Assembly: GCA_035709005.1 (NCBI GenBank)
Contig: DASTFB010000087.1
Span: forward strand, 62,001-126,000
Source: Candidatus Methylomirabilota bacterium
GTDB taxonomy: Bacteria > Methylomirabilota > Methylomirabilia > Rokubacteriales > CSP1-6
DNA length: 64,000 bases
Direction: 5' to 3'
Each line of letters begins with the position of its first letter. Position 1 is the first letter of the stretch. A program made the position numbers and the translations under genes. Positions 12,132-45,939 of this stretch are shown piece after piece. The notes under the pieces are model-generated. The model had not been told where the DNA came from, searched no databases, and was given only the letters and a program-made list of their open reading frames with translations.

Positions 12132-13112
12132 CTACCGCGTGAAGGCGAATCCCGAGGGATGGTTGGAGCCATGGATGTTCACGTGGCAGCTGGAACAGGC
12201 TCGGCCGAACACGAACTTGGCGGATGCGGTTTCCCGACCGTACGGGTTGGTCGGATGGCGGGTCTCCACGTGGCACTGCTGGCAGAGCCGTGGCTTGGCC
12301 ATCTTGAGCATCCGCTCGTGGTTGGAGCCGTGTGGATCGTGGCAATTCACGCAGCTCTCGGCGACGGGCGGATGCTCCCAGAGGAACGGCCCCCGCTTCT
12401 CGGCGTGGCAGGTGTAGCAGGTGTCGTTGAGGGACTGCTCCTTGAGCAGGGCCGGGGTGACGGTGCCGTGCGGGTTGTGGCACGACGTACAGGTCATCTT
12501 GCCCTCCCGCAGCGGCATGTGGGACGAGCGCATCTGCTGGGCCCGCCTCTGGATATGGCAGGAGCCGCAGGTATCGATCTCGGTAGCCCGGGCCAACTGG
12601 GCGCGCGGCGAATGGTCCTGCATGACCCTGTGGCAGCCGGCGCAGGTGACGTCGCGGGAGTCGTGGGGGCTCCCGGTCCAGAACAGGCGGTCGCCCTTGG
12701 TGTGGCACGCCAGGCACGCCTCGCTCCGCCGCTCCGGCGCGGTGGGATCGTCCCTGGCGAAGGTGATCAGCCTGGCCTGACGCCCCTTACCTCCACCGGC
12801 CTCGACGTGGGCCTGGCCCGGCCCGTGGCAGTTCTCGCAGCCCAGCCGCTCCAGCGCATTGCGCGGATGCCGGAGGAACAGCCGCCCCATCCGGGTGGTC
12901 GCGAAGCGCTCGTAGGCGTCCTCGTGGCACGCCTTGCAGGTCTCGGCGCCGACGTAGCCGTCTACCGGAGCCGATGCAGTGGTGCTCGATTGCGCGACTG
13001 GCGAAACGGGAGAAGGCGGCTGGGCTGGCGAGCAGGCAGAGAGCGCAAAGGCCAGGGCCAAAAGCCCTGTGCACCCGACTATCGTGACGGACCAGGCTGC
13101 TCGTCGTCCCAC
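12132..13112 (-). CDS. mtrA: MtrA/PioA/DmsE-type decaheme c-type cytochrome
   Basis: 326 aa with exactly ten CXXCH motifs, at about residues 59, 92, 133, 157, 182, 208, 232, 254, 277 and 306 (CKACH, CENCH, CLACH, CAGCH, CGSCH, CTSCH, CYTCH, CVNCH, CQQCH, CSSCH), the count and spacing of MtrA-type cytochromes. The signal sequence ends in LSACS, so it may be a lipoprotein (Cys 27). It carries electrons through the periplasm and into the MtrB barrel. The GTG start at 13112 is directly followed by an RRAAW n-region. mtrB follows after 3 bp. The GHVC-type small protein gene lies 98 bp upstream on the same strand. Direction of electron flow (metal oxidation or reduction) cannot be told from sequence. 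Confidence 0.93.
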   Translation of the reverse strand: MGRRAAWSVTIVGCTGLLALAFALSACSPAQPPSPVSPVAQSSTTASAPVDGYVGAETCKACHEDAYERFATTRMGRLFLRHPRNALERLGCENCHGPGQAHVEAGGGKGRQARLITFARDDPTAPERRSEACLACHTKGDRLFWTGSPHDSRDVTCAGCHRVMQDHSPRAQLARATEIDTCGSCHIQRRAQQMRSSHMPLREGKMTCTSCHNPHGTVTPALLKEQSLNDTCYTCHAEKRGPFLWEHPPVAESCVNCHDPHGSNHERMLKMAKPRLCQQCHVETRHPTNPYGRETASAKFVFGRACSSCHVNIHGSNHPSGFAFTR

Positions 13113-13210: not shown

Positions 13211-13546
13211 CTAGATCAGTAGCGCGGCGTGGCGTAAGAACAGCGGCGGTGAGGTCGCGACAGCTCGAACCTGCCCAGCCGCCGACCGAGCACGCAGGGC
13301 ATTGCGTTCAGGAGTAATCTCCGCACTGGCCGCGCCGACGATGATGAGGCTCACAGGCGACGGTGCCGCGGCGTCACACGACGCTTCGGCGACCGCATCA
13401 GTGGCGTGACCGGGCGTCTCGTCGGCGGCTTCACGGGTCGTGACCGTCGCCGTCGAAGCATGATCCGGGACCGGGCACACGTGGCCCAAGCACATCGCGG
13501 CTGTGAACGCCACCAGGACCTGGCCGAATCGCTGCGCCAGACGCAC
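13211..13546 (-). CDS. Small exported GHVC...PPLFLxHAxLLI protein (copy 1)
   Basis: 111 aa from GTG 13546; the frame is open upstream to 13741 but the hydrophobic leader (RFGQVLVAFTAAMC) begins just after this GTG. Directly after the leader comes LGHVCPVPDHAS, then an acidic/His-containing middle with one more Cys (AEASCDAAAP), and an invariant-looking end SPPLFLRHAALLI. I do not recognise a family. The protein encoded at 30615-30974 shares the same plan (GHVC, Pro, His, ASC, PPLFLxHAxLLI end), so the two are paralogues. This copy heads the mtrA-mtrB operon and is divergent from the monoheme/tetraheme operon. A role in conduit assembly or metal sensing is possible but speculative. Confidence 0.65.
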   Translation of the reverse strand: MRLAQRFGQVLVAFTAAMCLGHVCPVPDHASTATVTTREAADETPGHATDAVAEASCDAAAPSPVSLIIVGAASAEITPERNALRARSAAGQVRAVATSPPLFLRHAALLI

Positions 13547-13609: not shown

Positions 13610-13891
13610 GTGATTCTTCGAACGTCGGCCCTCGTGCTCGTCTTCTGGAGCGTTAGCCTCGGTGCCGCCGTGGCCGAGCCACTCTGGGTAAAGAACGCGA
13701 AGGACCTCGGGTACCCGGCCCAGAACTGTCTCTACTGCCACAGCACCAAGCTGCCGAAAAAGGAGACCTACACGCCTGGCGAGCTGAACGACCGCGGCCG
13801 GTGGCTGGTCCAGGAACGAGAGCGGCGCCGAGCGAGCCAGGTCGATCTGTCGTGGCTGAAGGACTATCCCGGCGGTAAAGCTCAGAAGTGA
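13610..13891 (+). CDS. Small periplasmic monoheme c-type cytochrome
   Basis: 93 aa from GTG 13610. The signal peptide (about 1-22, ending AAVAEP) is followed by WVKNAKDLGYPAQNCLYCHS, a single CXXCH heme site at about residue 38, and a lysine/arginine-rich C-terminus (ERERRRASQVDLSWLKDYPGG). The start is chosen at 13610 because GGTGGAG (13597-13603) is well placed before it; GTG 13598 is an alternative. There is no obvious distal Met ligand motif, and the protein is too short for a full class I fold, so it may be a small electron shuttle or a partner of the tetraheme protein, whose GTG start overlaps its stop (GTGA). It is the first gene of the plus-strand operon divergent from mtrAB. Confidence 0.8.
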   Translation: MILRTSALVLVFWSVSLGAAVAEPLWVKNAKDLGYPAQNCLYCHSTKLPKKETYTPGELNDRGRWLVQERERRRASQVDLSWLKDYPGGKAQK

Positions 13892-14574
13892 CGAGCGGAT
13901 GGCTCGGGTCCTTGCTGCCTCTCCTGGCGACAGCCACCTCAGCCATCCCGCAACCGCACGGGTGGCTCGGCACGGTCAACGACTGGGCCCGCGGACTCGG
14001 GATCGCGTTCGCCATTCTCGATTGCGTCCTTCTCGCCGTCGCCTGGACGATGCTCCGCCGGGCAGGAGTGACACCCACCCTGAGGCTGCTGCTGCCCGCG
14101 GCGGTCGTCGTGCTGCCGCTCGCCGTGACATTCTTCGGATACCACTACGGATTCGAAGCGGCCAAGAGCGTGGAGGCCTGCGGGGCCTGCCATGCGATGA
14201 GACCGTACGTGAGCGACCTCCGCGAGCCCGCCAGTCAGACGCTGGCCGCCGTTCATTTCAAGAACCGCTACATCCAGGACAATCAATGCTACACGTGTCA
14301 TTCCGACTACGGCATGTTCGGGGGACTGAGGGCGAAGTGGAAGGGGCTCGAGCACCTCGCGCGCCAGACAACGGGGTCCTATAGCCTGCCGCTGACGATC
14401 GCCCGTCCCTATGCCAGCGCCCGGTGCCTGCACTGTCACGGAGAATCCCTGAAGTTCCTCGAATCGGCCGGCCACGGCCGGGAACTGGTGGCGCAGATGA
14501 TCACCGGCGCGGTTTCGTGCCTCGGCTGCCACGGCCCTGCGCACCGGGCGGCAGCCGCTCGGGCGGTGCAGTGA
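13888..14574 (+). CDS. NapC/NirT/CymA-like tetraheme quinol dehydrogenase
   Basis: 228 aa with four CXXCH sites at about residues 98 (CGACH), 134 (CYTCH), 180 (CLHCH) and 211 (CLGCH), the layout of NapC/NrfH/CymA proteins. These oxidise membrane quinols and pass electrons to periplasmic cytochromes; CymA supplies MtrA in Shewanella. The heme region has NapC-like features (ACHAMRPYVSDL, HFKNRYIQDNQCYTCHSDYG, PLTIARPYASARC). Unlike NapC with its single anchor, the N-terminus has two strong hydrophobic helices (about 36-56 and 64-84) and perhaps a third (4-20). GTG start overlaps the monoheme gene stop. In context it is the likely link between the quinone pool and the MtrAB conduit transcribed divergently. 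Confidence 0.85.
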   Translation: MTSGWLGSLLPLLATATSAIPQPHGWLGTVNDWARGLGIAFAILDCVLLAVAWTMLRRAGVTPTLRLLLPAAVVVLPLAVTFFGYHYGFEAAKSVEACGACHAMRPYVSDLREPASQTLAAVHFKNRYIQDNQCYTCHSDYGMFGGLRAKWKGLEHLARQTTGSYSLPLTIARPYASARCLHCHGESLKFLESAGHGRELVAQMITGAVSCLGCHGPAHRAAAARAVQ

Positions 14575-22455: not shown

Positions 22456-24564
22456 ATGAGCGCACGGCAACGCGCTAGCGATCGCGCCGGACATCGCGAC
22501 CATGCGCCCGACGTCCATAGCCCCGTCGTCCACGGAGGCGGGGGTGGGACTGCCGAGGCCGCGCACCGAGGACAGGCTGCCGCCGGGCACCCCCGCAGTG
22601 GGGGCGGGGGCCACCACGCCCACATGGTCGCCGACTTTCGCCGGCGCTTCTGGATTTCTCTGATCCTGTCGATCCCGGTGCTGGCGCTGGCGCCGCTCCT
22701 CCAGCGCTGGCTGGGGCTCAGCGACGTGCTGGCCTTCCCGGGAGACCGGGCGGTCCAGACCGTGCTCGCGACGGCCATCTACTTCTACGGGGGCTGGCCG
22801 TTCCTGCGCGGTTTCGCCGCCGAGCTCGGGAAGCGCCAGCCCGGGATGATGACGCTGATCGCGCTGGCCATCACGGTCGCCTGGGGCTACAGCGTCCTGG
22901 TGGCCCTCGGGCTCCGCGGCGAGGTGTTCTTCTGGGAGCTGGCGACGCTGATCGACATCATGCTGCTCGGGCACTGGATCGAGATGAAGTCGGTGCTCGG
23001 CGCCTCGGCCGCGCTCGAGAGCCTGGTGCGGCTCATGCCGGCCGAGGCGCACCTGGTGGCCGCCGACGGCTCGACGCGGGAGGTGCCCGTCACGGAGCTG
23101 CAGCGTGGCGACCGCGTGCTGGTCAAGCCGGGCGAGAAGATCCCCACGGACGGCACGATCGTCCAGGGCCAGACCTCCGTCAACGAGGCCATGCTGACGG
23201 GCGAGAGCAGGCCCGTGGAGAAGGGCGAGGGCGCGACCGTGATCGGGGGCGCGGTCAACGGCGAGGCGGCCATCACGGTCGAAGTGCGGAAGACCGGGGA
23301 CGAGACGTACCTCTCGCAGGTCATCGCCATGGTCCGACAGGCCCAGGAGTCTCGCTCGCGCTCTCAGGACCTCGCCAACCGGGCGGCCGTCTGGCTGACG
23401 GTGGTTGCGCTCGGAGGCGGCGCCGTGACCCTGGTGGCCTGGCTCGCCATCGGCGCCCCCTTCCCGTTCGCGCTCGCCCGGACGGTGACGGTCATGGTCA
23501 TCGCCTGCCCGCACGCCCTCGGCCTCGCCGTGCCCCTCGTGGTCGCCGTCTCCACCGCGCTCTCAGCGGGCAACGGCCTCCTCATCCGCGACCGCTCGGC
23601 CTTCGAGCGCGCCCGCGCCCTCGACGCGATCGTGTTCGACAAGACGGGTACGCTCACGGAGGGGCGCTTCGGCGTCACCGACGTCATCCTGCTCGCCAAA
23701 CGGAGCGAGGAGGATCTCTTGCGCCTGGCGGCCAGCCTGGAGAGCCAGTCGGAGCACCCCATCGCCGCCGGCATCGTGCGGGGCGCCCAGGACAGGAAGA
23801 TCCCGTTCCCGTCACCCGCGGAGTTCCGCGCCATCCCCGGCAAGGGTGCCGAGGCCTTGGTGGACGATGCGCGCGTGAAGGTGGTGAGCCCGGGCTACCT
23901 GAAAGCCGAGGGCCTCGAGGTCGACAACGCGCGAGTCCGTGAGGTCGCCGAGCAAGGGAAGACCGTCGTTTACGTGCTGGTGAACGACCGCCTGGAGGGA
24001 GCCATCGCGCTCGCCGATATCATCCGGCCCGAGTCGCGCGAGGCGCTAGCCCGCCTGAAGGCGATGGGCATCAAGGTGATGATGCTGACGGGTGATGCCA
24101 CCGCCGTCGCGCGGTGGGTGGCCCGCGAGCTGGCGCTCGACGAGTTCTTCGCCGAAGTCCTCCCCGACCAGAAGGCGGCGAAGATCAAGGAGGTGCAGGA
24201 GCGGGGCCTCACGGTGGCCATGATCGGGGACGGCGTCAACGACGCCCCGGCCCTTACCCAGGCCGACGTGGGCATCGCCGTCGGCGCCGGCACCGACGTG
24301 GCCATCGAGTCCGCGGACATCGTGCTGGTCCGCTCCGACCCGCGCGATGTGACGGCGATCGTGGACCTGGCCCGTGCCACCTACCGCAAGATGGTGCAGA
24401 ACCTCTGGTGGGCCACGGGCTACAACGCCGTGGCCATCCCCGTCGCGGCCGGCGTGCTCTCCCCGGCCGGCATCCTGCTCACGCCAGCGGCGGGGGCCGT
24501 CCTCATGTCGGTGTCGACGGTGATCGTCGCGATCAACGCGCGCTTGCTGCGCCTGCAGAGATGA
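22456..24564 (+). CDS. copB: CopB-type copper/heavy-metal P1B-ATPase
   Basis: 702 aa. P-type ATPase motifs are all present: TGES (actuator), DKTGT (phosphorylated Asp), [16 protein letters not shown]. The transmembrane metal site is CPH ([14 protein letters not shown]), diagnostic of the CopB (P1B-3) subgroup that exports Cu ions from the cytoplasm. In place of a heavy-metal-associated domain, the N-terminal 56 residues are His/Gly-rich ([26 protein letters not shown]), as in CopB. Eight transmembrane helices are expected. GGGAGGA precedes ATG 22456. It ends the plus-strand run and faces the minus-strand YHS/DUF2933/Met-rich copper-type set. Confidence 0.93.
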
Positions 24565-26013: not shown

Positions 26014-26143
26014 CCGCGAAGCCGCCAAACGACCGCCACTCACGGGCCGTGCGCGGTCGAGTGAAGCTGAAGGCGAAGACCAGGAACACGAGCGAGTTGA
26101 TCGCGACGAGGGGCCAGAGCCCGTAGGCCGGCGCCTCGCTCAT
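25982..26143 (-). CDS. Truncated membrane methyltransferase-like protein (N-terminal fragment)
   Basis: 53 aa. It starts at an ATG overlapping the DUF2933 stop (ATGA). LWPLVAINSLVFLVFAFSF forms one membrane helix, then TRPRTAREWRSFGGFAAFVV leads into ALFAEM and a TAG stop. The isoprenylcysteine carboxyl-methyltransferase-like proteins that usually follow DUF2933 continue here as EMYGFPLTIY; the stop replaces the Tyr codon and the rest is missing, with an inverted repeat lying across the break. Probably a remnant, though the fragment may still be made. Family assignment is from memory of similar clusters. Confidence 0.6.
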   Translation of the reverse strand: MSEAPAYGLWPLVAINSLVFLVFAFSFTRPRTAREWRSFGGFAAFVVALFAEM

Positions 26144-26382
26144 GTGTCGCGCCCGCCCGGGGCCGGCCGCCCCGCGTCGCTACGCCGCTCCAGGTCTCCA
26201 GCATGATGCCCGCTGCCGCCGCGACCACCGTGGCCGCCGTGTCGGCCATGCATGAAGAAGTGCAGGAGCGGGCAGGCGAGCAGCAGAAGATACGGAACGA
26301 CGCCGAACACGTGCGCCCGGTGCTCCGTCAGCATGAAGAAGGCCGCGATCGCGAGGAACGCGAGCAGCACCCACCAGGTCAT
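26140..26382 (-). CDS. DUF2933 small membrane protein
   Basis: 80 aa. MTWWVLLAFLAIAAFFMLTE forms the first helix, then HRAHVFGVVPYLLLLACPLLH the second, followed by a His/Gly-rich tail (FFMHGRHGGHGGRGGSGHH). The pattern of short TM, HRAH, then L-L-L-A-C-P-L-x-H-x-F-M-H is what I know of DUF2933, a small protein linked to copper or heavy-metal gene clusters. The His-rich tail could bind metal. Its stop overlaps the start of the truncated methyltransferase-like ORF. Confidence 0.8.
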   Translation of the reverse strand: MTWWVLLAFLAIAAFFMLTEHRAHVFGVVPYLLLLACPLLHFFMHGRHGGHGGRGGSGHHAGDLERRSDAGRPAPGGRDT

Positions 26383-26450
26383 CGCGTCACCTCCGCCGGA
26401 AGATCACGGGCCCGGCAGCCATTCGTGACCGGTCGGAGCCCGCCAGGCGG

Positions 26451-26918
26451 CTACTTTGTCTTCGGCGCCGCCGAGGGCGTGCCCATCATCTCCGACATGT
26501 GCTTCTGCATCTCGGCCATGTGGCGCATCATCTCGGACATCTGTTCATGCAGGTCGCCGCGTGCTCCCATGCCGCCCTGACCGCCGGCGGCGCCGGGCCC
26601 CATGGGCCCGCGCGAACCCATGCCACCCATCATTGCGTGCATCATGCCCATCATCCCGCCCATCTCTTGCATGAGCTCGCCCATACGCTTCTGCTGCTCG
26701 GGCGACATCCCGCCGCTCTCCATCATCTCGGCCATCTGCTGCATCATCCCTTGCATCTGCTGCAGCGTGCCCTGCATCTGCATCATGGGTCCCATGCCCG
26801 GTCCACCACGATCCATGCCGGCCCCCGGACGCCCGGGGCCCATCTGCGCATGCGCAGCCGCCGGCGCCAGCCCCACCACCACGGCCGCCAGCACACCGAT
26901 CATCCATCGCGTCTTCAT
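26451..26918 (-). CDS. Exported methionine-rich protein
   Basis: 155 aa from ATG 26918. A signal peptide (about 1-24, AAAHAQ) precedes a mature protein in which roughly a quarter of residues are Met: GPMMQMQGTLQQMQGMMQQM, MGGMMGMMHAMMGGMGSRGP, EQMSEMMRHMAEMQKHMSEM. Met-x2-Met and Met-x3-Met spacing on predicted helices is typical of Cu+-binding periplasmic proteins; function is inferred. The frame is open upstream to 27050 but that part has no signal. It lies 16 bp after the SHOCT gene. Compare the Met/Gly-rich protein at 9440-9877 in the mtrAB operon. Confidence 0.75.
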   Translation of the reverse strand: MKTRWMIGVLAAVVVGLAPAAAHAQMGPGRPGAGMDRGGPGMGPMMQMQGTLQQMQGMMQQMAEMMESGGMSPEQQKRMGELMQEMGGMMGMMHAMMGGMGSRGPMGPGAAGGQGGMGARGDLHEQMSEMMRHMAEMQKHMSEMMGTPSAAPKTK

Positions 26919-26934
26919 CGCCGTTTCCCTCTCT

Positions 26935-27267
26935 TCATGTGAGATCCCGCTTCCGGGCTTCGAACTCCTCCTTGCCGATCTCCCCTCTCGCATAGCGCTC
27001 GCGCAGGATCTGGAGCGCGCGGTCGGCGCGCGGCTCGCCCCGAGACTCATCGCCCTGTCGCACGAGCCACCGGATGCCGAGCACGAGGCCTGCGATCACG
27101 AGTGCCCAGAAGAAGAACATCATCACCATCATCCCCAAGCCCCAGGCACCCCATCCCCACATCATCGGATGCGCGCCCCAATCCCAGGGACGGTCCTGGG
27201 CCACCACGATCAGCCGCAAAAGTCCCAGGTCGGACAGGCCGAGCGTCGTGCCTGCTGTGGCAAGCAT
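26935..27267 (-). CDS. SHOCT-domain membrane protein
   Basis: 110 aa. A Trp/Gly/Met-rich stretch (WDWGAHPMMWGWGAWGLGMM) leads into one strong transmembrane helix (about 48-68) and a C-terminal SHOCT domain: DRALQILRERYARGEIGKEE then FEARKRDL. SHOCT is a short oligomerisation domain at the C-terminus of many small membrane proteins, and this helix-plus-SHOCT form is frequent in copper clusters. The first ~20 residues before the Trp-rich part are weakly hydrophobic and the start could be internal. It opens the copper-type run after a hairpin terminator at 27451-27469. Confidence 0.8.
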   Translation of the reverse strand: MLATAGTTLGLSDLGLLRLIVVAQDRPWDWGAHPMMWGWGAWGLGMMVMMFFFWALVIAGLVLGIRWLVRQGDESRGEPRADRALQILRERYARGEIGKEEFEARKRDLT

Positions 27268-27501: not shown

Positions 27502-27843
27502 TCATCGCTCCAGTACGACCTTCACGAGCTCGGCCACCTCCCGGTCCCCCTCGTGCTTCGTCTCGACACTGACGATCCAGCCGGGCTTGAGCGCGGTCAG
27601 CGGAAGCAGTTGCTCCACGAAGCCGGTCTTCCCGGGGTCGGTGGCCCTGACGAACCTCACGACCCTCGCTCCCGGCTTGAGGTGCACCACCACCTGGCGG
27701 GTCTTCCCCTGGGCCGTCGCTTCCAGGGTCACCGTCCGCGCACCGGCATCCACAGCCTTCACGGAACCCGCGATCGGCGCCTCGTCGGCGACTGCCACCG
27801 TGGCGAAGAAAAGGAAACCCGCCGCTACTTGAATCGCTCTCAT
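27502..27843 (-). CDS. Exported small beta-barrel-like protein (CusF/DUF5666-like plan)
   Basis: 113 aa from ATG 27843. A signal peptide (about 1-20, VAVADE) is followed by a repeated strand pattern: IAGSVKAVDAGARTVTLEAT, KTRQVVVHLKPGARVVRF, LKPGWIVSVETKHEGDR, VAELVKVVLER. The S-V-K-x-V-D-x-x-x-x-T-V-T-L opening is shared by small OB-fold proteins such as CusF and DUF5666 domains. The Met/Trp copper ligands of CusF are not visible, so metal binding is not supported. It is 29 bp downstream of the triheme cytochrome and is probably the last gene of that transcript. Confidence 0.65.
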   Translation of the reverse strand: MRAIQVAAGFLFFATVAVADEAPIAGSVKAVDAGARTVTLEATAQGKTRQVVVHLKPGARVVRFVRATDPGKTGFVEQLLPLTALKPGWIVSVETKHEGDREVAELVKVVLER

Positions 27844-27872
27844 CGTGTATCCTCCGTGCACGCGGCTGACGG

Positions 27873-29120
27873 TCACCTCGCTGCCGTGGCGCGCTCACGG
27901 TCCCGAGCGAGGGACAGCACGTAATACGCGAGGTCCCAGACCTGCTCGGGCTCCAGCGCATCCGCATAGGACGGCATCGGCGTGCCGGCCAGGCCTGTCA
28001 TCAGGGTGCGGTAGATGTCCTCGGGGCGGCGACCATTCTTGAAGCGCTCGGCACGGGTCAGATCCGCCGCCGCGATGGGCAGACCGCGGTTGTCCTTCAG
28101 GGTCGGGGCCGAGGGACCATCACCCCGTCCGCCCGCGCCGTGGCAGGCAAGACACTCGGCATCGGCGTAGAGCTGCTTGCCGCGAGCCACGCGCTCGGGC
28201 GTGACGGGCGGCGCGGCCGGTATCACGACCGTCCGGATCTCGTCCCGCTCCCAGAATCGTCGGTTGAGGCTCTTGACGTATTCGATCACCTCGAGCCGTT
28301 GCTCCTCGGGCATGTGACGGAAGCTAGGCATGATGCGGTGGCCACGGAGCCCGATCGTCATCGCCCCCCGAGGGCCCCGGACACCCTCGGTCACCGTCCG
28401 GAACAGATCGGCCGTGATCGGCAACTGGCCTGTAGGGGTCGAGCGGAACTTGAACTCGCCGCTGGTGAAGTCACGAGGCTGGGGCGCCCGCCGGGGCGAC
28501 AGGGTCGCCCCCACCGTGCCATCGCCACGCCCCTGGTCGCCATGGCACGGCAGGCACGCCATCACGTAGATGTCGCGGCCGACGAGCACGCTCTCGGGGT
28601 GCTCCCACGGCGTATGGGGGCCGTCGTGCCCGGAAAAGGTGTGCTGGTAGGCCATGACGGCCCAGCGCTCCTCCACCGACAGCTCGCCCTTCCAGGGCGG
28701 CATGGCCGAGCCCTTACTCTTGAACGGCTCGGCTTGCCCACCCTCGGTCACGCGCCAGAACCAGTAGTTGTCGCGCATCTCGGCCACGCCGGCCTTGTCG
28801 GTGAAGTCGGAGGGCTTGAGCGGGAGGGCCAGGCCGGCCGGCCCCTTGCCGTCCCCGCCGTCGCCGTGGCAAACCGCGCACTTCGCGGTGTAGATCTGCT
28901 TGCCGCGGGCGATCATCGCCGGATCGGTCCACACGCTCGTGGGCACATGGGCGTCCGCATAGCCCAGCGGGGCCGGCACATGGGCGTGACCGCCCGCATC
29001 AGCGTGATCGTCGCCGTTGGCGCGGATCGCCGGCGGGTTCGATCCCCAGAGGCCCAGCATCGCAAGCGCGCACGCGGCCCCCAGCGTGATCCACCTCTTC
29101 CGCCTCACAGGCCCCTCCAT
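27873..29120 (-). CDS. Triheme c-type cytochrome (three class I domains)
   Basis: 415 aa. Signal/anchor region at about 10-30, a His-rich linker (NGDDHADAGGHAHVP), then three cytochrome c domains with CXXCH at residues 81 (CAVCH), 189 (CLPCH) and 323 (CLACH). Each heme motif is followed by HGxGGxGDGxxxxxL-type sequence and later Met-containing ligand regions (AMPPWKGELS, IMPSFRHMPEE, PMPSYADAL). Multi-domain cytochromes like this transfer electrons in the periplasm. Its ATG overlaps the stop of the Cyc2-like gene (TGATG), so the two are made together; it is the natural periplasmic electron acceptor for the cytochrome-porin. Confidence 0.9.
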   Translation of the reverse strand: MEGPVRRKRWITLGAACALAMLGLWGSNPPAIRANGDDHADAGGHAHVPAPLGYADAHVPTSVWTDPAMIARGKQIYTAKCAVCHGDGGDGKGPAGLALPLKPSDFTDKAGVAEMRDNYWFWRVTEGGQAEPFKSKGSAMPPWKGELSVEERWAVMAYQHTFSGHDGPHTPWEHPESVLVGRDIYVMACLPCHGDQGRGDGTVGATLSPRRAPQPRDFTSGEFKFRSTPTGQLPITADLFRTVTEGVRGPRGAMTIGLRGHRIMPSFRHMPEEQRLEVIEYVKSLNRRFWERDEIRTVVIPAAPPVTPERVARGKQLYADAECLACHGAGGRGDGPSAPTLKDNRGLPIAAADLTRAERFKNGRRPEDIYRTLMTGLAGTPMPSYADALEPEQVWDLAYYVLSLARDRERATAAR

Positions 29121-30550
29121 CAGAAATCCCAGTCGATGCCGACGAACAGCTGGTTCCGCCAGCTCCGCAGCGCGTTGTGCTCGACGGTGCTCCGGAGGTT
29201 CACGCTGTCCCGGACGAAGAAGGCGATGTTCTGCCAGGGGTAGAACTTCGCCTGGACCGAAAGCACGCTGCCGTCGCGCTTGTCGTCCCGGAGACCCCCC
29301 GCCCAGAGCTGGTCGAACCGGCCGGAGAGCATCACCTTCTCGTGCACGAGGTAGTCGGCCTGGACCGTGAAGCCAGCCGCCGAGCGGTCGAACTCGCGCC
29401 GGAGCTCCCCCGGCAACCCGTAGAGCAGATCGAAGATGAGCGCCCCGTACACGTCGAGGGCCTTCCAGCGGACGTTGGCGGCCAGGCCATAGCGCAACCG
29501 GTCGAGTCGCCGGTCGCCGGGCTGCTCGTGATCGCCGGGGTCGGGGGCGCGCACGACGCCGACCCCCCCGTTGAGCAGCGCCGACACGTTGAAGGTCAGC
29601 TCCCGGCGATCGAGGAGATCGTACCGGAGCATCGCATAGGCGTTGAAGCCTTCGTTCTCCCGCAGGAACCCCGCCTGGGCCAGGACCACGTCGTTGATCA
29701 TGGCGTGGAAGTCCGCCCCCGGCTCACCGGTCGTGTTGTACATGACCTGGTCGGTGACGAGCTGTGGCTCGCCGTCGTCGCGCTCCTTGAACAGCCCGAA
29801 GAACTTGGAGGCGAACGCGTACGGCACGACCGGTAATCGATGGACCTCCCCCCGGCCATCCTCTTCCTCGATCTCCGTTTCCGTCGCCTCGACGAGCTGG
29901 CGGTTCGTCGGATACGAGAAGTTGGTGTTGGGGTCGATCTTACCCGCCATCAGCATTGGCCCGTGCATGGTGAAGCCGCCGTGCCGGCCCACCATCGTCT
30001 GGCCACCCATCTGCATAGTCGGGGCGCCGAGGACGCCCAGCAGGGCGCCCATGTTCCACATGAAGAAGGCCTCCTTGCCGAGGCCGAAGACGTCCTTGCG
30101 CTCCACGAAGCCGCGGCTCGGCGAGAATCCGACGGACTTCGGCTCGTACTCGAACTCCAGGTAGACGCTGAGATCGGGCGTGAGGGAGCGCGTCACGAAC
30201 AGGGCGAACTCGTGCGGCGGCTCGAACGTCGTTTCGGTCTCGTCCGGCGACTCCGAGTACTCGAACAGCCCACCGACGATTCTGAGGGCCAGGCTATCGA
30301 TGGCGGTCTTGAGCGGGCCGTCCTCCTTGAGACTCCCCACCAGCCCCTCGGGCCGGGCGGCGCTGGGAATTTGAAAGCCCATCAGGTGGAACTGCTCGCC
30401 GAACCGGTTCAGGCGCGGCGGGCGAGTATGACAGACGTTACACTGCAGGTCGTACTGCCGGGCGAACGCCGGCACCGCCTCTGCCGTTTCCACAAGAACG
30501 CAGCCGACCAGCATCGCGCCAAGCGCGACGTCGAGCAGTCGCCTCGCCAT
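29120..30550 (-). CDS. Cyc2-like fused monoheme cytochrome and outer-membrane porin
   Basis: 476 aa. Signal peptide (about 1-25), then AFARQYDLQCNVCHTRPPRL with one CXXCH at residue 37 and NRFGEQFHLMGF, followed by about 400 residues of alternating-strand beta-barrel ending FVGIDWDF (C-terminal Phe, as in outer-membrane barrels). A heme right at the mature N-terminus preceded by A-x-R-Q and followed by a barrel is the arrangement of Cyc2, the outer-membrane iron oxidase of neutrophilic and acidophilic iron oxidisers. This is an inference: a wider set of porins shares this heme-plus-barrel form and substrates are unproven. The adjacent triheme cytochrome and the GHVC-type leader protein support an electron-conduit role. 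Confidence 0.75.
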   Translation of the reverse strand: MARRLLDVALGAMLVGCVLVETAEAVPAFARQYDLQCNVCHTRPPRLNRFGEQFHLMGFQIPSAARPEGLVGSLKEDGPLKTAIDSLALRIVGGLFEYSESPDETETTFEPPHEFALFVTRSLTPDLSVYLEFEYEPKSVGFSPSRGFVERKDVFGLGKEAFFMWNMGALLGVLGAPTMQMGGQTMVGRHGGFTMHGPMLMAGKIDPNTNFSYPTNRQLVEATETEIEEEDGRGEVHRLPVVPYAFASKFFGLFKERDDGEPQLVTDQVMYNTTGEPGADFHAMINDVVLAQAGFLRENEGFNAYAMLRYDLLDRRELTFNVSALLNGGVGVVRAPDPGDHEQPGDRRLDRLRYGLAANVRWKALDVYGALIFDLLYGLPGELRREFDRSAAGFTVQADYLVHEKVMLSGRFDQLWAGGLRDDKRDGSVLSVQAKFYPWQNIAFFVRDSVNLRSTVEHNALRSWRNQLFVGIDWDF

Positions 30551-30614
30551 AGCCTCCCCTTCGCTGGAGACACCACGATCTGCAGCTGAAACGTCGGCCG
30601 AGAGGAAGAGGAGT

Positions 30615-30974
30615 CTAGATCAGGAGCGAGGCGTGCAATAGAAAGAGCGGCGGCGCCGTGAACATCGGAGCGATGACGGCGGCGTCCGCAGCCCCGCGAC
30701 GATCGACCGCCGCCGAGGCGAGCTCCGAGCGCAGCGCCGGCGCGACCACGGACACCTGCGACGCCCGCAAGCCACTACAGGACGCAGCATGGGCGGCCTC
30801 GTCGGTGCCGGGATGATCGTGCTGGGAGGACGCCGCCTCCGTCGGGAGATCCGCCTCGTGAACGTAGGACTGGAAGTCGGCGGCGTGAGCATGCGGCAGA
30901 ACGCAGACGTGACCGGCGACGGCCATCACCGCTACCAGAAGCATCACGAGGGTCGGCCACGAGCGCCGGCTCAT
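30615..30974 (-). CDS. Small exported GHVC...PPLFLxHAxLLI protein (copy 2)
   Basis: 119 aa from ATG 30974. The leader (SWPTLVMLLVAVMAVAG) runs into GHVCVLPHAHAADFQSYVHE, a His-rich middle (SQHDHPGTDEAAHAASC) and the end APPLFLLHASLLI. It shares with the protein at 13211-13546 the GHVC motif right after the leader, the ASC near the middle and the PPLFLxHAxLLI C-terminus, so they are paralogues; this copy has more His. I recognise no named family. It is 64 bp upstream of the Cyc2-like gene on the same strand. A promoter (30983-31012) places the transcript start at or next to the ATG. Confidence 0.65.
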   Translation of the reverse strand: MSRRSWPTLVMLLVAVMAVAGHVCVLPHAHAADFQSYVHEADLPTEAASSQHDHPGTDEAAHAASCSGLRASQVSVVAPALRSELASAAVDRRGAADAAVIAPMFTAPPLFLLHASLLI

Positions 30975-31012: not shown

Positions 31013-31175
31013 ACTTCACGACGGCCTCCGCAGGTAGACCTTGCCGATCGCTCCGCCATGCTTGCCGCCTCCCAGCTCGCTGGCGGCCACGCCGATCCGC
31101 GTAGCCCCCCCGCGTAGCAGCCGGACTGCTGAGCCATCCCCAGCGCGAGGCAGTGACGCTGACGCGCATTGCGAC

Positions 31176-31204
31176 TTGCTCGGCGGCCGGTCTTGCGCTA
31201 TTTC
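31176..31204 (+). promoter_or_regulatory. Promoter of the zinc-type gene run, probably near-leaderless
   Basis: TTGCTC (31176-31181), a 17-bp spacer and TATTTC (31199-31204) lie 9 bp before ATG 31214. The match to consensus is moderate. Together with the minus-strand promoter at 30983-31012 it makes this a divergent control region. Confidence 0.4.
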
Positions 31205-31213
31205 TTTCCCGGC

Positions 31214-31528
31214 ATGACCCGCCTTCAATGTGCCCGCCGCCGCCGGTCGGTGGCGGGGTTCTTGCTGAGCGCCTGCGCCCTGCTGACGCTCCTCGTCAGT
31301 GGCGCGAGCACGACACACGACCACACGCACGGTGTGGGGCTCTACAACTCGGGGTGCTCGCTGCTGGCGTTGGCCGCGCTCGGGAGCAACCCGGCGCTCG
31401 ATGCAGAGCGGCAGGCCCTGCCCGCAGAGCTCGTCACCTGGACCGGACCACCGCCGGCCGCAGTTGTCATCCCGGAATCGTTCCGTCAGTACCCCGCATC
31501 TCGCGCACCTCCGTCCGTCCTCGGCTAG
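31214..31528 (+). CDS. Small exported His-motif protein
   Basis: 104 aa from ATG 31214. A basic start (MTRLQCARRRR) and hydrophobic leader (VAGFLLSACALLTLLVSG) precede THDHTHGVGLYNSGCSLLAL, a His/Asp patch with one Cys, then a Pro-rich tail (TGPPPAAVVIP, SRAPPSVLG). No family recognised. The HDHTH patch could bind zinc, which would suit the ZnuA-like and ZnuB-like genes downstream; this is inference. The leader-patch-Cys-proline plan recalls the small proteins at 13211, 14974 and 30615. Confidence 0.55.
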   Translation: MTRLQCARRRRSVAGFLLSACALLTLLVSGASTTHDHTHGVGLYNSGCSLLALAALGSNPALDAERQALPAELVTWTGPPPAAVVIPESFRQYPASRAPPSVLG

Positions 31529-31604
31529 CGCTCCCGTCCTGATCCCCTAGCGCGTCCAGGCGACGCGCGACTGGCATCAACCCCTTCGGGCACGGAGGCC
31601 CGCT

Positions 31605-32927
31605 ATGCGCGGACGGCTTACGATCTGCTGTGCGTTCGGACTTGGGTTGGCATGCTCCAGCTCGCCAGGGCAAGCGTTCGAGCCTCTTGAACTTGGACTC
31701 CGGCCGGGCACGGCGGCTCGGTCCGCCCAGGCCGCTCCGGCGGCGCCCCCGCCATCAGCGCCAGGGGCCCCCGCGGCACCCACGCTCGAAGAGCTGGCCA
31801 GGCCCCGCGCCCCATTCACGCTGTATGAGCGGCGCGGGACCGGGCAGCTCCTCTTCGACCTGGGTGTGGTGGGCGACTTCATCGCCAATATCACTCAGGA
31901 CAATATCGACAAGGCAGACGCCGGCACCTTTGCCGGCCGCGAGAACCGGTTCTTTCCGCGCGAGGTCGAGCTCTTGCTCTACGGCCAGATCGATCCCTAT
32001 GCTCGCGGCGAAGTCAGACTCGAGGCGGCCGAGGAGCTCGAAGACGGGGAGCGCGACCTGCACCTGGGCCTCGCCGAGGCGAACCTCACGCTCCTCACCC
32101 TGCCCTTCGGCACCCAGCTCAAGATGGGGAAGATGCGTAATCGCTTCGGTCTCCTCAACCAGCTCCATCGCGAGGGGCTGCCTCAGCCGGACCAGCCCAG
32201 CGTGCTCACCCGGTTCCTGGGTGAGGAAGGACTCGTGGAGAGTGGGGCGGAAGTGACGTGGGTCGCGCCGCTCCCCTTGTACCTCGAGGCTCTTGTCGGG
32301 CTGTTCAACGGCGACAACGAGGACGCCTTCGGCCGGAGCAGTCTCAAGGTCCCGCTCGCGACCGGGCGACTGCGGACCTTCGTCGATCTGGAGACGCTGG
32401 GGGCGGTCCAGTTCGGGGCCTCCGTGGCCAACGGCCAGACCGAGGAGCGGCGCTCGCAGACCTTGGTCGGCTACGACGTGAAGTACAAGCTCACGCCGGA
32501 AGGCTGGCGCCATCCGCTGCTGACGCTCGCCAGCGAGGGCATCTGGTCCCGCCGGGAAGCCGCGATCGAGGAGGAGATCGACACCGACGCCGACGGTATC
32601 CCCGACACGACCGTGACGGTCGACACGAAGACTCGGCGGCGCTTCGGATGGTATGCCTACGCCGAGGTCCAACCGACGCGGCGGTGGGCCGGCGGGGTTC
32701 GGTACGACAATACCCAGCTTCTCGAAGGTCCGGGCCGCGAGTGGGCGATCGAGCCCTACGTCACGTTCTGGGCGTCGGATTTTTTACGCTTCCGGCTTGC
32801 CTACAAGAAGACCAAGCGTGACGATCGGGAGTCGTTCAATGCCAACGGCGCATCAGGGCGCAGTGCCGACGAAATCTTCTTCCAGGCCACGTTCTTCCTG
32901 GGGGCTCATCAACCCCATCCCTTCTAG
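31605..32927 (+). CDS. Outer-membrane beta-barrel protein, metal-uptake context
   Basis: 440 aa. Signal peptide (about 1-24), a Pro/Ala-rich linker (AAPAAPPPSAPGAPAAP), a periplasmic plug-like start, and then amphipathic strands: FFPREVELLLYGQIDPYARG, LPFGTQLKMGKMRNRFG, AIEPYVTFWASDFLRFRLAY, ending FFLGAHQPHPF. The NRFG motif after a strand and a terminal Phe are typical of porins related to phosphate/pyrophosphate-selective OprP types. It lies 12 bp before a ZnuA-like gene with AGGAGGA between, so it may be the outer-membrane gate for the same metal. The role is inferred from context. Confidence 0.7.
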   Translation: MRGRLTICCAFGLGLACSSSPGQAFEPLELGLRPGTAARSAQAAPAAPPPSAPGAPAAPTLEELARPRAPFTLYERRGTGQLLFDLGVVGDFIANITQDNIDKADAGTFAGRENRFFPREVELLLYGQIDPYARGEVRLEAAEELEDGERDLHLGLAEANLTLLTLPFGTQLKMGKMRNRFGLLNQLHREGLPQPDQPSVLTRFLGEEGLVESGAEVTWVAPLPLYLEALVGLFNGDNEDAFGRSSLKVPLATGRLRTFVDLETLGAVQFGASVANGQTEERRSQTLVGYDVKYKLTPEGWRHPLLTLASEGIWSRREAAIEEEIDTDADGIPDTTVTVDTKTRRRFGWYAYAEVQPTRRWAGGVRYDNTQLLEGPGREWAIEPYVTFWASDFLRFRLAYKKTKRDDRESFNANGASGRSADEIFFQATFFLGAHQPHPF

Positions 32928-32939
32928 GAGGAGACGCTG

Positions 32940-33860
32940 ATGCATCGATTGTTTCGCCTGTTCATCGCCGGCCTCGTCGCGGTCGTCACCACGGTGCCGG
33001 TCCACGCCCAGCCGAAGATCCGGGTCGTCGCCTCGACGCCGGATCTCAAGTCGCTGACCGAAGCGGTTGGAGGCGACCGCGTGGACGTTGAAAGCCTTGC
33101 CCGGGGTTGGCAGAACTTCCACGATGTGGAGGTCCGGCCGAGCCTGATGGTGAAGCTCCGGCGCGCCGACCTGCTCGTCACGAACGGCCTCGACCTGGAC
33201 TTCTGGGTGGACTCTCTCGTTCAGGGCGCGCACAATCCCAAGCTGCTGGTCGGCGGTCCAGGGCGGATCGATGCGTCGCGCGGCGTGCCAGTCCAGGAAA
33301 TCCCCGCCGGTCGCGTCGACCGCTCGATGGGCGATGTCCACCCTCTGGGTAACCCGCACTACACCCTTGATCCAGCAACCGCGCCGATCGCGACGGCCAA
33401 TATCCTGGATGGGCTCGCGCGCCTGACCCCCGAGCATCGCGAGCTCTTCGACCGCCGGCGGGACGAGTTTCTCGGGCGGCTTCGCGCCGCCCAGACGCGG
33501 TGGCGGGAGACCCTCGAGCGCTTCAAGGGCGCCAAGGTCGTCGTCTATCACAATACGTGGATCTATTTCCTCTCCCGCTTCGGCCTCACCCAGGCCGGGA
33601 CGATCGAGGACCGCCCTGGGATTCCGCCCTCGCCCGCGCATCTGGCCGCCATCGTCCGCCGAATGAAAGACGAGCGTATCCGGGTCGTAGTCCTCGCCCC
33701 CTGGGGCGACCGCAGGCTCGCTGAACGAGTGGCTGCCGACGCTGGGGCCCAGGTGATCGTGCTGGCCCACACGGTCGGCGCGGTGAAAGGCACGGACTCC
33801 TATCTCGAAATGATCGGGCACAACGTGAACGCCCTGGCCCGAGCCCTGGGCGCTTCATGA
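32940..33860 (+). CDS. ZnuA-like metal ABC transporter substrate-binding protein
   Basis: 306 aa. Signal peptide (about 1-23, VHAQ), then IRVVASTPDLKSLTEAVGGD, the cluster A-I metal-binding fold. Candidate ligands are His in WQNFHDVEVRPS (about residue 60), His in GNPHYTLDP (about 140), His in VVYHNTWIYF (about 205), and Asp/Glu near the C-terminus. Family members bind Zn2+ or Mn2+ in the periplasm; the canonical His-rich loop of ZnuA is absent, only DVHPLGNPH remains. ATG 32940 is preceded by AGGAGGA. The permease gene starts within its last codons (ATGA overlap). Confidence 0.88.
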   Translation: MHRLFRLFIAGLVAVVTTVPVHAQPKIRVVASTPDLKSLTEAVGGDRVDVESLARGWQNFHDVEVRPSLMVKLRRADLLVTNGLDLDFWVDSLVQGAHNPKLLVGGPGRIDASRGVPVQEIPAGRVDRSMGDVHPLGNPHYTLDPATAPIATANILDGLARLTPEHRELFDRRRDEFLGRLRAAQTRWRETLERFKGAKVVVYHNTWIYFLSRFGLTQAGTIEDRPGIPPSPAHLAAIVRRMKDERIRVVVLAPWGDRRLAERVAADAGAQVIVLAHTVGAVKGTDSYLEMIGHNVNALARALGAS

Positions 33861-34720
33861 GCGATCTGCTGGCACTCCTCTGGGCCCCGTTTCTGATGTG
33901 CCTGGTGCTCACGGGGATCCATGCCTACCTCGGCATCCACGTGATCGCCCGCGAGGTGGTGTTCGTGGATATCGCCCTGGCCCAGATCGCGGCCCTCGGG
34001 GCTACGGCCGCCTTCCTCGTCGGCATCCCGCTGGAGGCGTGGGGTTCGTACGCGACGGGATTGGCGGCGACGCTGCTGGGGGCCGTCATCCTCGCGCTCA
34101 GTCGCGCCCGCCAGCGTCAGGTATCCCAGGAAGCCGTCATCGGCGTGGTCTATGCTGTCTCGACGGCCGCGGCTATTCTGCTGATCGACCGCGCGCCCCA
34201 TGGCAGTGAGCACCTTCGCGCGATGCTTGTCGGCAACATCTTGGCCGTGAATGGAGCCGACGTGGTGAAGGTCGCGGCCCTGTACGCGGTCGTCGGAGCC
34301 TTTCACTGGCTCTGGAGGCGACAGTTCGTGCTGATCACGCTCTCGCCCGAGGCAGCGTTTCGGGAAGGCTGGAACGTCCGTCTCTGGGACTTTATCTTCT
34401 ACGCCTCATTTGGCGTGGTCGTGACAAGCTCGGTCCGGGTAGCCGGAGTCCTCCTCGTCTTTTCCTACCTCATCGTTCCCGCGCTCGCTGGCACGGTTCT
34501 GGGCGGCCGTCTATCGACCCGCCTGGCGATCGGGTGGGCCTTCGGAACCGCGGTGAGCATCCTCGGCGTGGCCGGCTCGGCGATCCTGGACACCCCGACC
34601 GGCGCCACGGTGGTCTGCGCCTTCGGGCTCTCGCTGTTGATTCTCACCGGCTTCACACGGGTGCTGGGATTGCCGGTGCTGCGTAAGGAGGCTGATGGTG
34701 CTCGCCTGCGGTCCACCTGA
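33857..34720 (+). CDS. ZnuB-like metal ABC transporter permease
   Basis: 287 aa with seven to eight hydrophobic helices. Features of ABC-3 family permeases: LGIHVIAREVVFVDIALAQI with the VF(V/A)DxALAQIAALG segment, SQEAVIGVVYAVSTAAAI, and GVLLVFSYLIVPALAG. It forms the inner-membrane channel for Zn or Mn import with the ZnuA-like protein. The ATPase subunit that normally completes the set is not encoded here: after the stop at 34720 the next gene is the convergent livF. A ZnuC must come from elsewhere or be missing. Confidence 0.9.
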   Translation: MSDLLALLWAPFLMCLVLTGIHAYLGIHVIAREVVFVDIALAQIAALGATAAFLVGIPLEAWGSYATGLAATLLGAVILALSRARQRQVSQEAVIGVVYAVSTAAAILLIDRAPHGSEHLRAMLVGNILAVNGADVVKVAALYAVVGAFHWLWRRQFVLITLSPEAAFREGWNVRLWDFIFYASFGVVVTSSVRVAGVLLVFSYLIVPALAGTVLGGRLSTRLAIGWAFGTAVSILGVAGSAILDTPTGATVVCAFGLSLLILTGFTRVLGLPVLRKEADGARLRST

Positions 34721-44468: not shown

Positions 44469-44936
44469 CTACTTCTTGATCTCCGGGCCGCGGAACGCCG
44501 TGTGGCAGGCGCCGCACGTCGTCTTGCTGAGGTCGGCGACCGCCGCGCTCGTCGCCTGGGCCGTCCCCGTCCTGGCGATGGCGGCCGTCTGGGTCGCCTT
44601 CTCTCCCAGTCGCTTCGCGTTTCCTTCGAACTCCGACCACCTCTGCCAGATCTCCGGCTTGGCTCGAGATCTGGAGGGATCCAGCGAGCCCTGCGGGAAC
44701 AGCGCCGGGATCTGACTGGACGTCTTGGCGAGCTTGTCCAGCTCGGGGGTGATCGCCTGGTGCTGTCCGGCCTTGAGCTTGCTCTGGATTGCCCTCATGG
44801 CCGCGCTCTGCTCCTTCATGAGGGCCTGGCGCTCGGCGATAGGATCGCCCATGCCCATCATCGACTTGGCCTTGGCGCAACCGAACAGGACCACCGCACC
44901 AACAATGATGACGCCTGCCTGCAGTGCCAACCTCAT
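44469..44936 (-). CDS. Cytochrome c' / c556-like lipoprotein (class II)
   Basis: 155 aa. A lipobox LFGC (Cys 20) suggests membrane anchoring. The body is helical and the only heme motif, CGACH, is at residue 141 near the C-terminus, as in class II cytochromes c' and c556 (four-helix bundles with C-terminal heme attachment). SEFEGNAKRLGEKATQTAAI aligns with the usual second half. Electron-transfer or gas-binding roles are both known in the family. It is 58 bp downstream of the diheme cytochrome gene. Confidence 0.85.
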   Translation of the reverse strand: MRLALQAGVIIVGAVVLFGCAKAKSMMGMGDPIAERQALMKEQSAAMRAIQSKLKAGQHQAITPELDKLAKTSSQIPALFPQGSLDPSRSRAKPEIWQRWSEFEGNAKRLGEKATQTAAIARTGTAQATSAAVADLSKTTCGACHTAFRGPEIKK

Positions 44937-44994
44937 CGTCTGACCTCCTGTCGAGGGCGATGGCCGCTGGCCGGCGCCCGTGAGGGTGGTGACG

Positions 44995-45939
44995 CTACGG
45001 CTTCGTGATCTTGTTGTTCACCGGGGGAATCGACTTGAGATATCCGGCGATGGCCAGACGGTCGTCCCGGGTCAGGTCTTTGTAGCCCGCCCGCGTGCCC
45101 TGGATCACCTCGGCCATCAGGCCACCGGCGACGTCGCCGTCGGGCTTGTTGCCGGTCCCCAGATACTCGGCGATCTCCTCCTCGGACCAGGTCAGCCCCG
45201 TGCTCTTGTCCGGTGTTATGTTCGGGACCTCCGAGTCCTCGGGGCCCTTCGGGTTGCCGGCCAGGAAGCGCGAATTGTCGGTCGCCATGGTGACCGTCCG
45301 GGGCGTGTGACACTCGCCACAGTGACTCACCGCCCGCACCAGGTACTCGCCCCGCGCGATTCCCGACGTGGGAGCGGACGGCGGGGGCGTCTCGCGCGGC
45401 GCGAACGCGGCCAGCCAGGCGGGCAGGAAGACGCTCTCGAAGAACGGCACGGTGATCTTCTTGGGTTGGTTCTCCCGCTTCACCGCGGGGACCGTGCGCA
45501 GGAACGCGACCAGCGCCTGGAGGTCGGCCTCAGCCATGCCGTTGAAGACCGGGTACGGGTGCACGGGGATCAAGCGCTCTCCGTTGGGCCTCCGGCCCAG
45601 CCGGATCGCCGCGATGATCTGCTCGTCGGTCCAGCCGCCGATGCCCGTCTCGCGGTCCGGCGTGATGTTTGTCGAGTACACGGTGCCGAACGCCCCATCG
45701 TAGCGTCGTCCCCCCGTGTTGACGGCCTGTTCGGGAACGGTGTGACAGCCGCATCCGCCCGCGGCGCCGAAGATGTACCGGCCGCGCAGAACAGGGTCCC
45801 CGGCCGGGGCCTGGGCCCCCGCGTGCCGGGGGGACACCAGCACGGCCGCGGCGAGCGTGAGCCCCACCCCGGTCGCCAGCAGCCTCCACCCGCCCCGCGG
45901 GGCGGAGCCCAACCTGAACTGACAGGATGAACGCGTCAA
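44995..45939 (-). CDS. Diheme class I cytochrome c with one atypical heme motif
   Basis: 314 aa from TTG 45939, which overlaps the rimI stop; TTG at residue 10 is another option. Signal peptide about 15-43. Two cytochrome c domains as in the cytochrome subunits of alcohol or aldehyde dehydrogenases: YSTNITPDRETGIGGWTDEQ and VPNITPDKSTGLTWSEEEI are the paired NITPDxxTGIGxWS motifs. The second heme site is a normal CGECH (residue 207). The first reads AAGGCGCHTVPE, i.e. CxCH rather than CXXCH (Cys 63, Cys 65, His 66). So the first heme may be held by one thioether bond or be lost. Probably periplasmic. Confidence 0.85.
   Translation of the reverse strand: MTRSSCQFRLGSAPRGGWRLLATGVGLTLAAAVLVSPRHAGAQAPAGDPVLRGRYIFGAAGGCGCHTVPEQAVNTGGRRYDGAFGTVYSTNITPDRETGIGGWTDEQIIAAIRLGRRPNGERLIPVHPYPVFNGMAEADLQALVAFLRTVPAVKRENQPKKITVPFFESVFLPAWLAAFAPRETPPPSAPTSGIARGEYLVRAVSHCGECHTPRTVTMATDNSRFLAGNPKGPEDSEVPNITPDKSTGLTWSEEEIAEYLGTGNKPDGDVAGGLMAEVIQGTRAGYKDLTRDDRLAIAGYLKSIPPVNNKITKP

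Follow-up and report, generated by a model that had tools for sequence, protein, structure and literature searches.

A probably copper-linked Cyc2-type heme porin preceded by a CutF-like leader in the Rokubacteriales

Since Cyc2-like genes serve as markers of iron oxidation in metagenomes, the question arises whether a protein with the Cyc2 signature may serve another metal. The case described here is a gene at positions 29120-30550 of a 64,000-nucleotide stretch of DNA (the window) from a Candidatus Methylomirabilota soil bacterium of the Rokubacteriales (assembly GCA_035709005.1, contig DASTFB010000087.1, positions 62,001 to 126,000); the contig measures 356 kb and the genome 4.59 Mb. The gene encodes a Cyc2-like fused monoheme cytochrome-porin and is coupled to the gene of a triheme cytochrome. 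It is likely that this is a copper-linked heme porin under a CutF-like leader. We give a probability of about 0.48 to the reading that the operon is an outer-membrane heme-porin module that responds to metal, most likely to copper. A clade with the Cyc2 signature in copper-efflux neighbourhoods under such a leader would mean that the marker over-calls iron oxidation, and the clade of the window protein is a concrete test of whether the Cyc2 fold serves other metals.

A heme porin with the Cyc2 signature and its triheme partner

The heme porin open reading frame (ORF) is read on the minus strand from an ATG at 30550 to 29120 and encodes 476 amino acids (aa), with a hydrophobic N-terminal start and Phe as the C-terminal residue. 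Cyc2 has been defined by one CXXCH motif near the N-terminus, AXPXFAR[Q/K][T/Y] shortly before it, PXL 4 residues after it, a minimum length of 365 residues and a porin of 16 strands, of the OprO/OprP kind (Keffer et al. 2021; PMC8406198). Comparison with this consensus localizes the core of the heme domain to positions 30410-30478 (minus strand), where the stretch AVPAFARQY-DLQ-CNVCH-TRP-PRL contains the upstream motif as AVPAFARQY (residues 25-33), the sole CXXCH of the protein as CNVCH (residues 37-41) and PXL as PRL (residues 45-47). The length of 476 aa exceeds the minimum, and the protein agrees with the published definition in every point that can be tested on its sequence.

The stop codon of the porin gene overlaps the start of the next gene in the sequence TGATG. 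This second gene (27873-29120, read on the minus strand from 29120 to 27873) encodes a triheme cytochrome c of 415 aa with three class-I domains (Pfam PF00034/PF13442) and CXXCH motifs at residues 81, 189 and 323. A first-pass annotation of the window, which had proposed a Cyc2-like porin with a single CXXCH at residue 37, a terminal Phe and TGATG coupling to a triheme partner, is borne out in all of these respects, and its coordinates were correct; the strand, which it left unstated, is minus. Orthologues of the porin with 67-78% identity keep the same gene order, both elsewhere in the Rokubacteria and in a second family of the class, and the pairing of the two genes is therefore more than chance. 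The triheme partner, 70-80% identical, is present downstream of every clade porin whose contig extends to it. A third gene (27502-27876, minus strand), whose start overlaps the triheme stop, encodes an exported-looking protein of 124 aa which is weakly CusF/OB-fold-like (CusF_Ec, E=0.016, below the cut-off) and is the third operon gene in most clade loci. Two related metagenome-assembled genomes (MAGs) carry split genes, with a frameshift-like break of the triheme gene in one (L010:6001-8989) and a split porin gene in the other (L016:5740-7081), by assembly error or decay.

The barrel is less sharply defined. Searches of Pfam and NCBIfam with the 476-aa protein gave no match, nor did phmmer and profile searches of the PDB sequences; nothing matching was found in IMG/VR, and plasmid records likewise gave no match. 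Two AlphaFold2 runs (full length and mature) yielded models with about 15-18 strands at a predicted local distance difference test score (pLDDT) of 38-39, low because all sequences behind the prediction were close relatives, and these models were used for strand count and Foldseek class only. The top Foldseek matches were the porins OmpC, OmpF, OmpU, PorB, DcaP and OccD (E about 1e-6, template modelling (TM) score up to 0.47), of which OmpC, OmpF, OmpU, PorB and DcaP are 16-stranded. The models thus consistently, if weakly, favour a porin barrel. The earlier description of the sequence as barrel-like agrees with the strand count and with the 16-stranded porins among the top matches, although the low pLDDT and a TM score of at most 0.47 keep this agreement weak.

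An N-terminal single CXXCH with its flanking motifs, fusion of the heme domain to a porin-like region and an adjacent cytochrome c gene are features shared with Cyc2 of Acidithiobacillus ferrooxidans, Cyc2PV-1 of Mariprofundus and Cyt572 of Leptospirillum (PMC8406198). The window protein could oxidise Fe(II) in the manner of Cyc2, either resembling cluster 3 or lying beyond it: dissolved Fe2+ would enter the barrel and give its electron to the heme, from which the triheme cytochrome and a terminal oxidase would receive it. The copper genes described below would then be mere neighbours. Its agreement with the testable Cyc2 definition speaks for such a role, as do the oxidation of Fe(II) by three characterised Cyc2 proteins (PMC8406198) and the cytochrome partner that plasmid Cyc2-like genes also adjoin. 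We nevertheless consider it unlikely, as the similarity of the window porin to the other Cyc2-like proteins compared is mostly limited to about 50 residues around the heme. The proteins compared include plasmid copies from A. ferrooxidans and Acidiphilium, which are the sole named references. N-terminal matches to Cyc2-like proteins have E values of 1e-8 to 5e-11, and the A. ferrooxidans plasmid copy matches at E=0.067; the published definition of Cyc2 admits blastp matches with E up to 1e-5 to a query from one of its three clusters. Moreover, the authors of the Cyc2 study regard function in divergent branches as uncertain and urge caution.

Full or partial members of the window-porin clade are present in 9 of 95 genomes of the class (G000, G028, G051, G077, G079, G080, G082, G083 and G088), some of which have a second porin copy or fragment, and all named close relatives are Ca. 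Rokubacteria MAGs. In the tree, the clade (window, G028, G051, G077, G080, G083 and G088) branches off on a stem 2.1 substitutions per site long and falls outside the group of the A. ferrooxidans and Acidiphilium plasmid copies; the deep join connects long branches and is not to be taken as a placement. Cyc2 homologues in Rokubacteria as such are already known: Rokubacteria belong to the taxa for which FeGenie listed homologues of cyc2 or sulfocyanin. Cyc2-like proteins of other Methylomirabilota (G059, G056, G020, G023, G033 and G086) are about 40-50% identical to the window protein over about 50 residues of the heme domain, and some of their genes likewise neighbour multiheme class-I cytochromes; in contrast to the window clade, from which they are separate in the tree (100/100), they have neither the Met/His insert nor, as far as seen beside the porin, copper neighbours or a leader. 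Two genomes from a different family of the class contain a further Cyc2-like clade (L060:4838-8946 and L061:7022-11312), where multiheme class-I cytochrome genes, one of them 38% identical to the triheme partner, flank the porin on both sides. An identical Cyc2-like protein is encoded beside a transposase on an A. ferrooxidans YQ-N3 plasmid (L048) and on pACRY03 of Acidiphilium cryptum (L049), either by recent transfer or because of a mixed culture.

Copper genes and a Met/His insert in the porin clade

Copper genes accompany the porin in most of the clade. A Cu P-type ATPase or CusABC/CusCB genes are located near it in seven of the nine genomes, and a CsoR-type repressor in one more. The most complete locus is that of G028, where CusA-CusC-CusB, the leader, the porin, the triheme cytochrome, the 124-aa protein and a Cu ATPase follow one another on one strand. 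CusABC (G080) or CusCB (G083) is present immediately upstream, CusABC lies about 7 kb upstream in G077, and a Cu ATPase of the HMBD type is found downstream of the operon in G082 and G079. The G051 locus contains a CsoR/RicR-like repressor together with SHOCT and Met-rich proteins. In the window, a Cu-translocating P1B-type ATPase with a CPH motif (22456-24564, plus strand; TIGR01511 614 bits, cut-off 397) converges with the operon, in company with DUF2933, Met-rich and SHOCT genes, and the ATPase adjoining the G028 operon is 81% identical to it. CusA of G028 scores 1115 bits against TIGR00914 (cut-off 701) and retains, when aligned, all three copper-binding Met of E. coli CusA.

Clade genomes have few Cu ATPase and CusA loci, so the proximity of copper genes to the porin is far above chance, with the restriction that six of the nine genomes are of the same genus and not independent. 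Random co-location, which at about four copper loci per 5 Mb would occur at roughly 2% per locus, does not account for seven of nine genomes; relatedness among the genomes makes binomial figures for this co-location too optimistic. Seven other Cyc2-like loci of the class show no comparable copper neighbour, two of them having only CusA/B/C fragments of 26-27% identity.

The second feature of the clade is an insert rich in Met and His at residues 176-204 (APTMQMGGQTMVGRHGGFTMHGPMLMAGK; positions 29939-30025, minus strand), for which no counterpart was found in the other Cyc2-like proteins compared. Among the seven full-length members, 8 of 8 Met/His residues of the insert are invariant as against 4 of 12 elsewhere after residue 60 (Fisher p=0.004). 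Copper neighbours and an insert that are specific to the window clade speak against the Fe(II) oxidase considered above. Along with the little similarity of its barrel to the Cyc2-like proteins compared and its 2.1-substitution stem, they set the clade apart from Cyc2, as do the leader ORF and Shine-Dalgarno hairpin described below.

An outer-membrane barrel and a periplasmic redox protein in a copper setting are also found in the copper-resistance pair PcoAB/CopAB (a porin with a multicopper oxidase in PMC5566968). In the window, by contrast, the redox group is a heme that shares one polypeptide with the barrel and is supported by a triheme cytochrome, and none of the 95 genomes of the class has a PcoA above the cut-off. 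A PcoB-like barrel as the identity of the 476-aa protein was rejected on the presence of the heme motif and the lack of PcoA in the class.

A leader ORF and a Shine-Dalgarno hairpin upstream of the porin

An ORF of 119 aa (30615-30974, read on the minus strand from 30974 to 30615) ends 64 nucleotides (nt) before the porin gene. The protein is exported-looking, with an N-terminus hydrophobic by eye, a GHxCxxPxHxH-type motif and the C-terminal tail PPLFLLHASLLI. Orthologues with 29-45% identity to the window copy are situated upstream of the porin in 8 clade genomes. In these eight sequences H22, C24, P27, H28 and H30 are invariant, forming a putative Cys/His metal site, and a tail PLFLLHAxLI at the stop is conserved, with His changed to Tyr in one. 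Near the C-terminus a PP is present in the window (TAPPLFLLHASLLI) and is replaced in G080 (LP) and G051 (RP). Pfam matches of the leader are all below the cut-off (DUF6769 E=0.0014, DUF2946 E=0.06 to 4.3).

The 64-nt intergenic region (30551-30614, minus strand) can fold into an RNA hairpin, in which a 5' arm following the leader stop (about 30602-30613) pairs with the Shine-Dalgarno region of the porin (about 30551-30564). This pairing is present in the minimum free energy fold of all 8 loci, and cognate arms pair better than permuted ones (mean -23.7 vs -19.9 kcal/mol, p=0.0006), also among six non-redundant loci (p=0.0056) and when five of the other loci headed by the leader family are added to give 11 leader loci (p=0.0001).

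This layout resembles that of CutF-CutO of Rhodobacter capsulatus (PMC9973294) and of CruR (PMC9426467), in which a small exported upstream ORF with a Cys/His metal motif and a Pro-containing C-terminus, acting as a nascent protein, precedes a nearby gene. CutF-like leaders are recognised by an N-terminal signal peptide, a putative Cys/His metal site and a PP within the last 15 residues, and in the case of CutF the site at which ribosomes bind ahead of the multicopper oxidase CutO is hidden in a hairpin (PMC9973294). The present leader differs from these systems in having a heme porin and a triheme cytochrome downstream, in its tail PLFLLHAxLI and in that its DUF2946 match is not significant. 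In the open-licence literature, neither a link of a Cyc2-like clade to copper genes nor one to a CutF-like leader was found.

A class-wide search located the leader family ahead of other genes too: a Cu ATPase with HMBD (G038), cytochromes (G026 and G052), a multicopper oxidase in G018 (L096:2865-4592), which is the kind of target known from CutF-CutO, and a cytochrome-OEP-multicopper oxidase-MerR operon in G086 (L095:2304-6810), also a CutF-CutO-like target; Cu efflux genes are among those that family members precede. Single cytochromes from the operons that the leader heads in G086 and G052 share 63-69% identity with the N-terminal domain of the triheme protein. From the gene types headed by the family and the pairing of the arms, the leader looks like a transition-metal, mostly copper, switch. 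Its occurrence within one phylum ahead of Cu ATPases, multicopper oxidases, Cyc2-like and decaheme/PioB operons may help to tell under which conditions uncultured Rokubacteria produce redox proteins of the outer membrane.

These targets also bear on a copper-handling porin that does not oxidise Cu(I), for example a Cu-selective outer-membrane channel with the heme as the route of its gating or reduction, or a Cu(II) reductase that serves uptake and receives electrons moving outward via the triheme cytochrome. The copper neighbourhood, the leader and the Met/His insert would apply equally to such a porin, and CutF/CruR-like leaders have also been found ahead of TonB-type outer-membrane receptors. 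We regard it as quite unlikely, since the neighbours are chiefly efflux genes (CusABC and P1B ATPases) and the leader family stands elsewhere ahead of multicopper oxidases, which favours oxidation and detoxification over uptake.

A paralogue of the leader ORF (13214-13519, minus strand; E=2.5e-15 against the leader alignment, tail PPLFLRHAALLI) heads another operon of the window, and its post-stop arm pairs with the ribosome-binding region of the gene that follows, encoding an MtoA/PioA-like decaheme cytochrome (12132-13112, minus strand; 10 CXXCH). Next to this is an MtrB/PioB-family barrel (9912-12128, minus strand; PF11854 353 bits at G000:C87:71918-73969). The decaheme/PioB pair is a conduit separate from the Cyc2-like operon, and PioAB homologues are already known from Rokubacteria (PMC10654088). 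Mto/Pio (MtrAB-type) systems resemble the heme porin in being outer-membrane redox conduits; they differ in having a PF11854 porin and ten hemes in a separate protein, and the searches made gave no homology to the 476-aa protein. A Mto/Pio conduit as the identity of that protein was rejected on its different porin, its three-heme partner and the lack of a PF11854 or any other Pfam match. A tetraheme, membrane-anchored-looking cytochrome, NapC/CymA-like by eye, is encoded divergently from the decaheme operon (13888-14574, plus strand).

A conduit of the Mto/Pio kind in the same window would suit an Fe(II) oxidase, but such a porin is present in only G000 and G051 of the nine clade genomes. The conduit under the same leader type would also suit a module for extracellular electron transfer in general, whose donor would be Mn, another metal, an electrode or organic matter and in which copper genes travel along as terminal oxidases need copper, and the Mn(II)-oxidising Ca. 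Manganitrophaceae have Cyc2 homologues. Such a module appears very unlikely to us, because the linked copper genes serve efflux and detoxification, not oxidase assembly. The conservation of the neighbourhood, the insert restricted to the clade and the leader ORF together lead us to favour copper over iron, and the iron oxidase suggested in the first-pass annotation is not supported. The oxidase of another metal that the annotation named as its alternative may still apply.

Proposed working of the module and adjoining genes

In the copper-responsive module that we prefer, the leader ORF would be translated and exported, and a metal, probably Cu, would bind its Cys/His motif and slow the ribosome at the conserved C-terminal tail. 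The slowed ribosome would cover the 5' arm past the leader stop and free the Shine-Dalgarno sequence of the porin, upon which the porin, the triheme cytochrome and the small OB-like protein would be synthesised. The Met/His segment, placed within the barrel or beside it, may then bind metal ions, most likely Cu(I) expelled by CusABC and P1B ATPases, and the single heme at the periplasmic mouth would oxidise them. The triheme cytochrome would take up the electrons and deliver them to a terminal oxidase, toxic Cu(I) becoming Cu(II). COX1-family oxidases are present in 9 of 9 clade genomes.

The DNA itself shows the order of the genes, the heme motif, the insert, the copper genes nearby, the leader family and the complementary arms of the hairpin, and this scheme builds on them; that the ribosome stalls, that Cu is the ligand and Cu(I) the substrate, where the insert sits and which way electrons flow are what we infer from them. 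As a full Cu(I)-oxidase mechanism it is tentative, with somewhat less than an even chance of being right. The more specific proposal of an outer-membrane heme cuprous oxidase that replaces periplasmic multicopper oxidases, feeds respiration via the triheme cytochrome and is induced by a copper-sensing leader is doubtful. If the porin does oxidise Cu(I), it would represent a heme solution to a task that until now has been ascribed to multicopper oxidases.

Several observations weigh against a copper module. The loci L015, L013/L057 and L017 have no copper gene within the available sequence, the window genome has no CusA match at the threshold used, and its Cu ATPase is convergent with the operon rather than co-directional. 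As clade members are 67-78% identical and six of the nine genomes belong to one genus, invariance and synteny partly reflect shared ancestry. The insert is modelled at a pLDDT of about 20-30, which leaves its location in the structure ill-defined, and the small OB-like protein lacks, by inspection, the metal ligands of CusF. The window hairpin taken alone is no better than shuffles of its own 5' arm (p=0.16), so that the case for the hairpin rests on comparison across loci. The leader family may lack copper specificity, as its members are also found ahead of a ZnuA/AztC-like gene (G082) and of the decaheme/PioB operon. Finally, binding of Cu and oxidation of Cu(I) by the porin are themselves deduced from sequence.

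The accessory genes of the window are located beyond the 124-aa gene on the operon strand (minus; 26140-27267) and were assigned with Pfam. They encode a SHOCT protein (26935-27267), a Met-rich secreted protein (about 26451-27050) and a DUF2933 protein (26140-26382); a SHOCT homologue and a Met-rich protein are also present at the G051 locus with CsoR. On the other side, divergent from the Cyc2-like operon (31169-34720, plus strand), a small exported-looking ORF ends in SRAPPSVLG, with a RAPP tail as in CruR, and may be another metal-responsive leader. Downstream of it are the genes of a 440-aa outer-membrane-like protein, a ZnuA/AztC-type binding protein and an ABC-3 permease. The window also contains a cytochrome c' gene (PF01322) at 44472-45017 on the minus strand.

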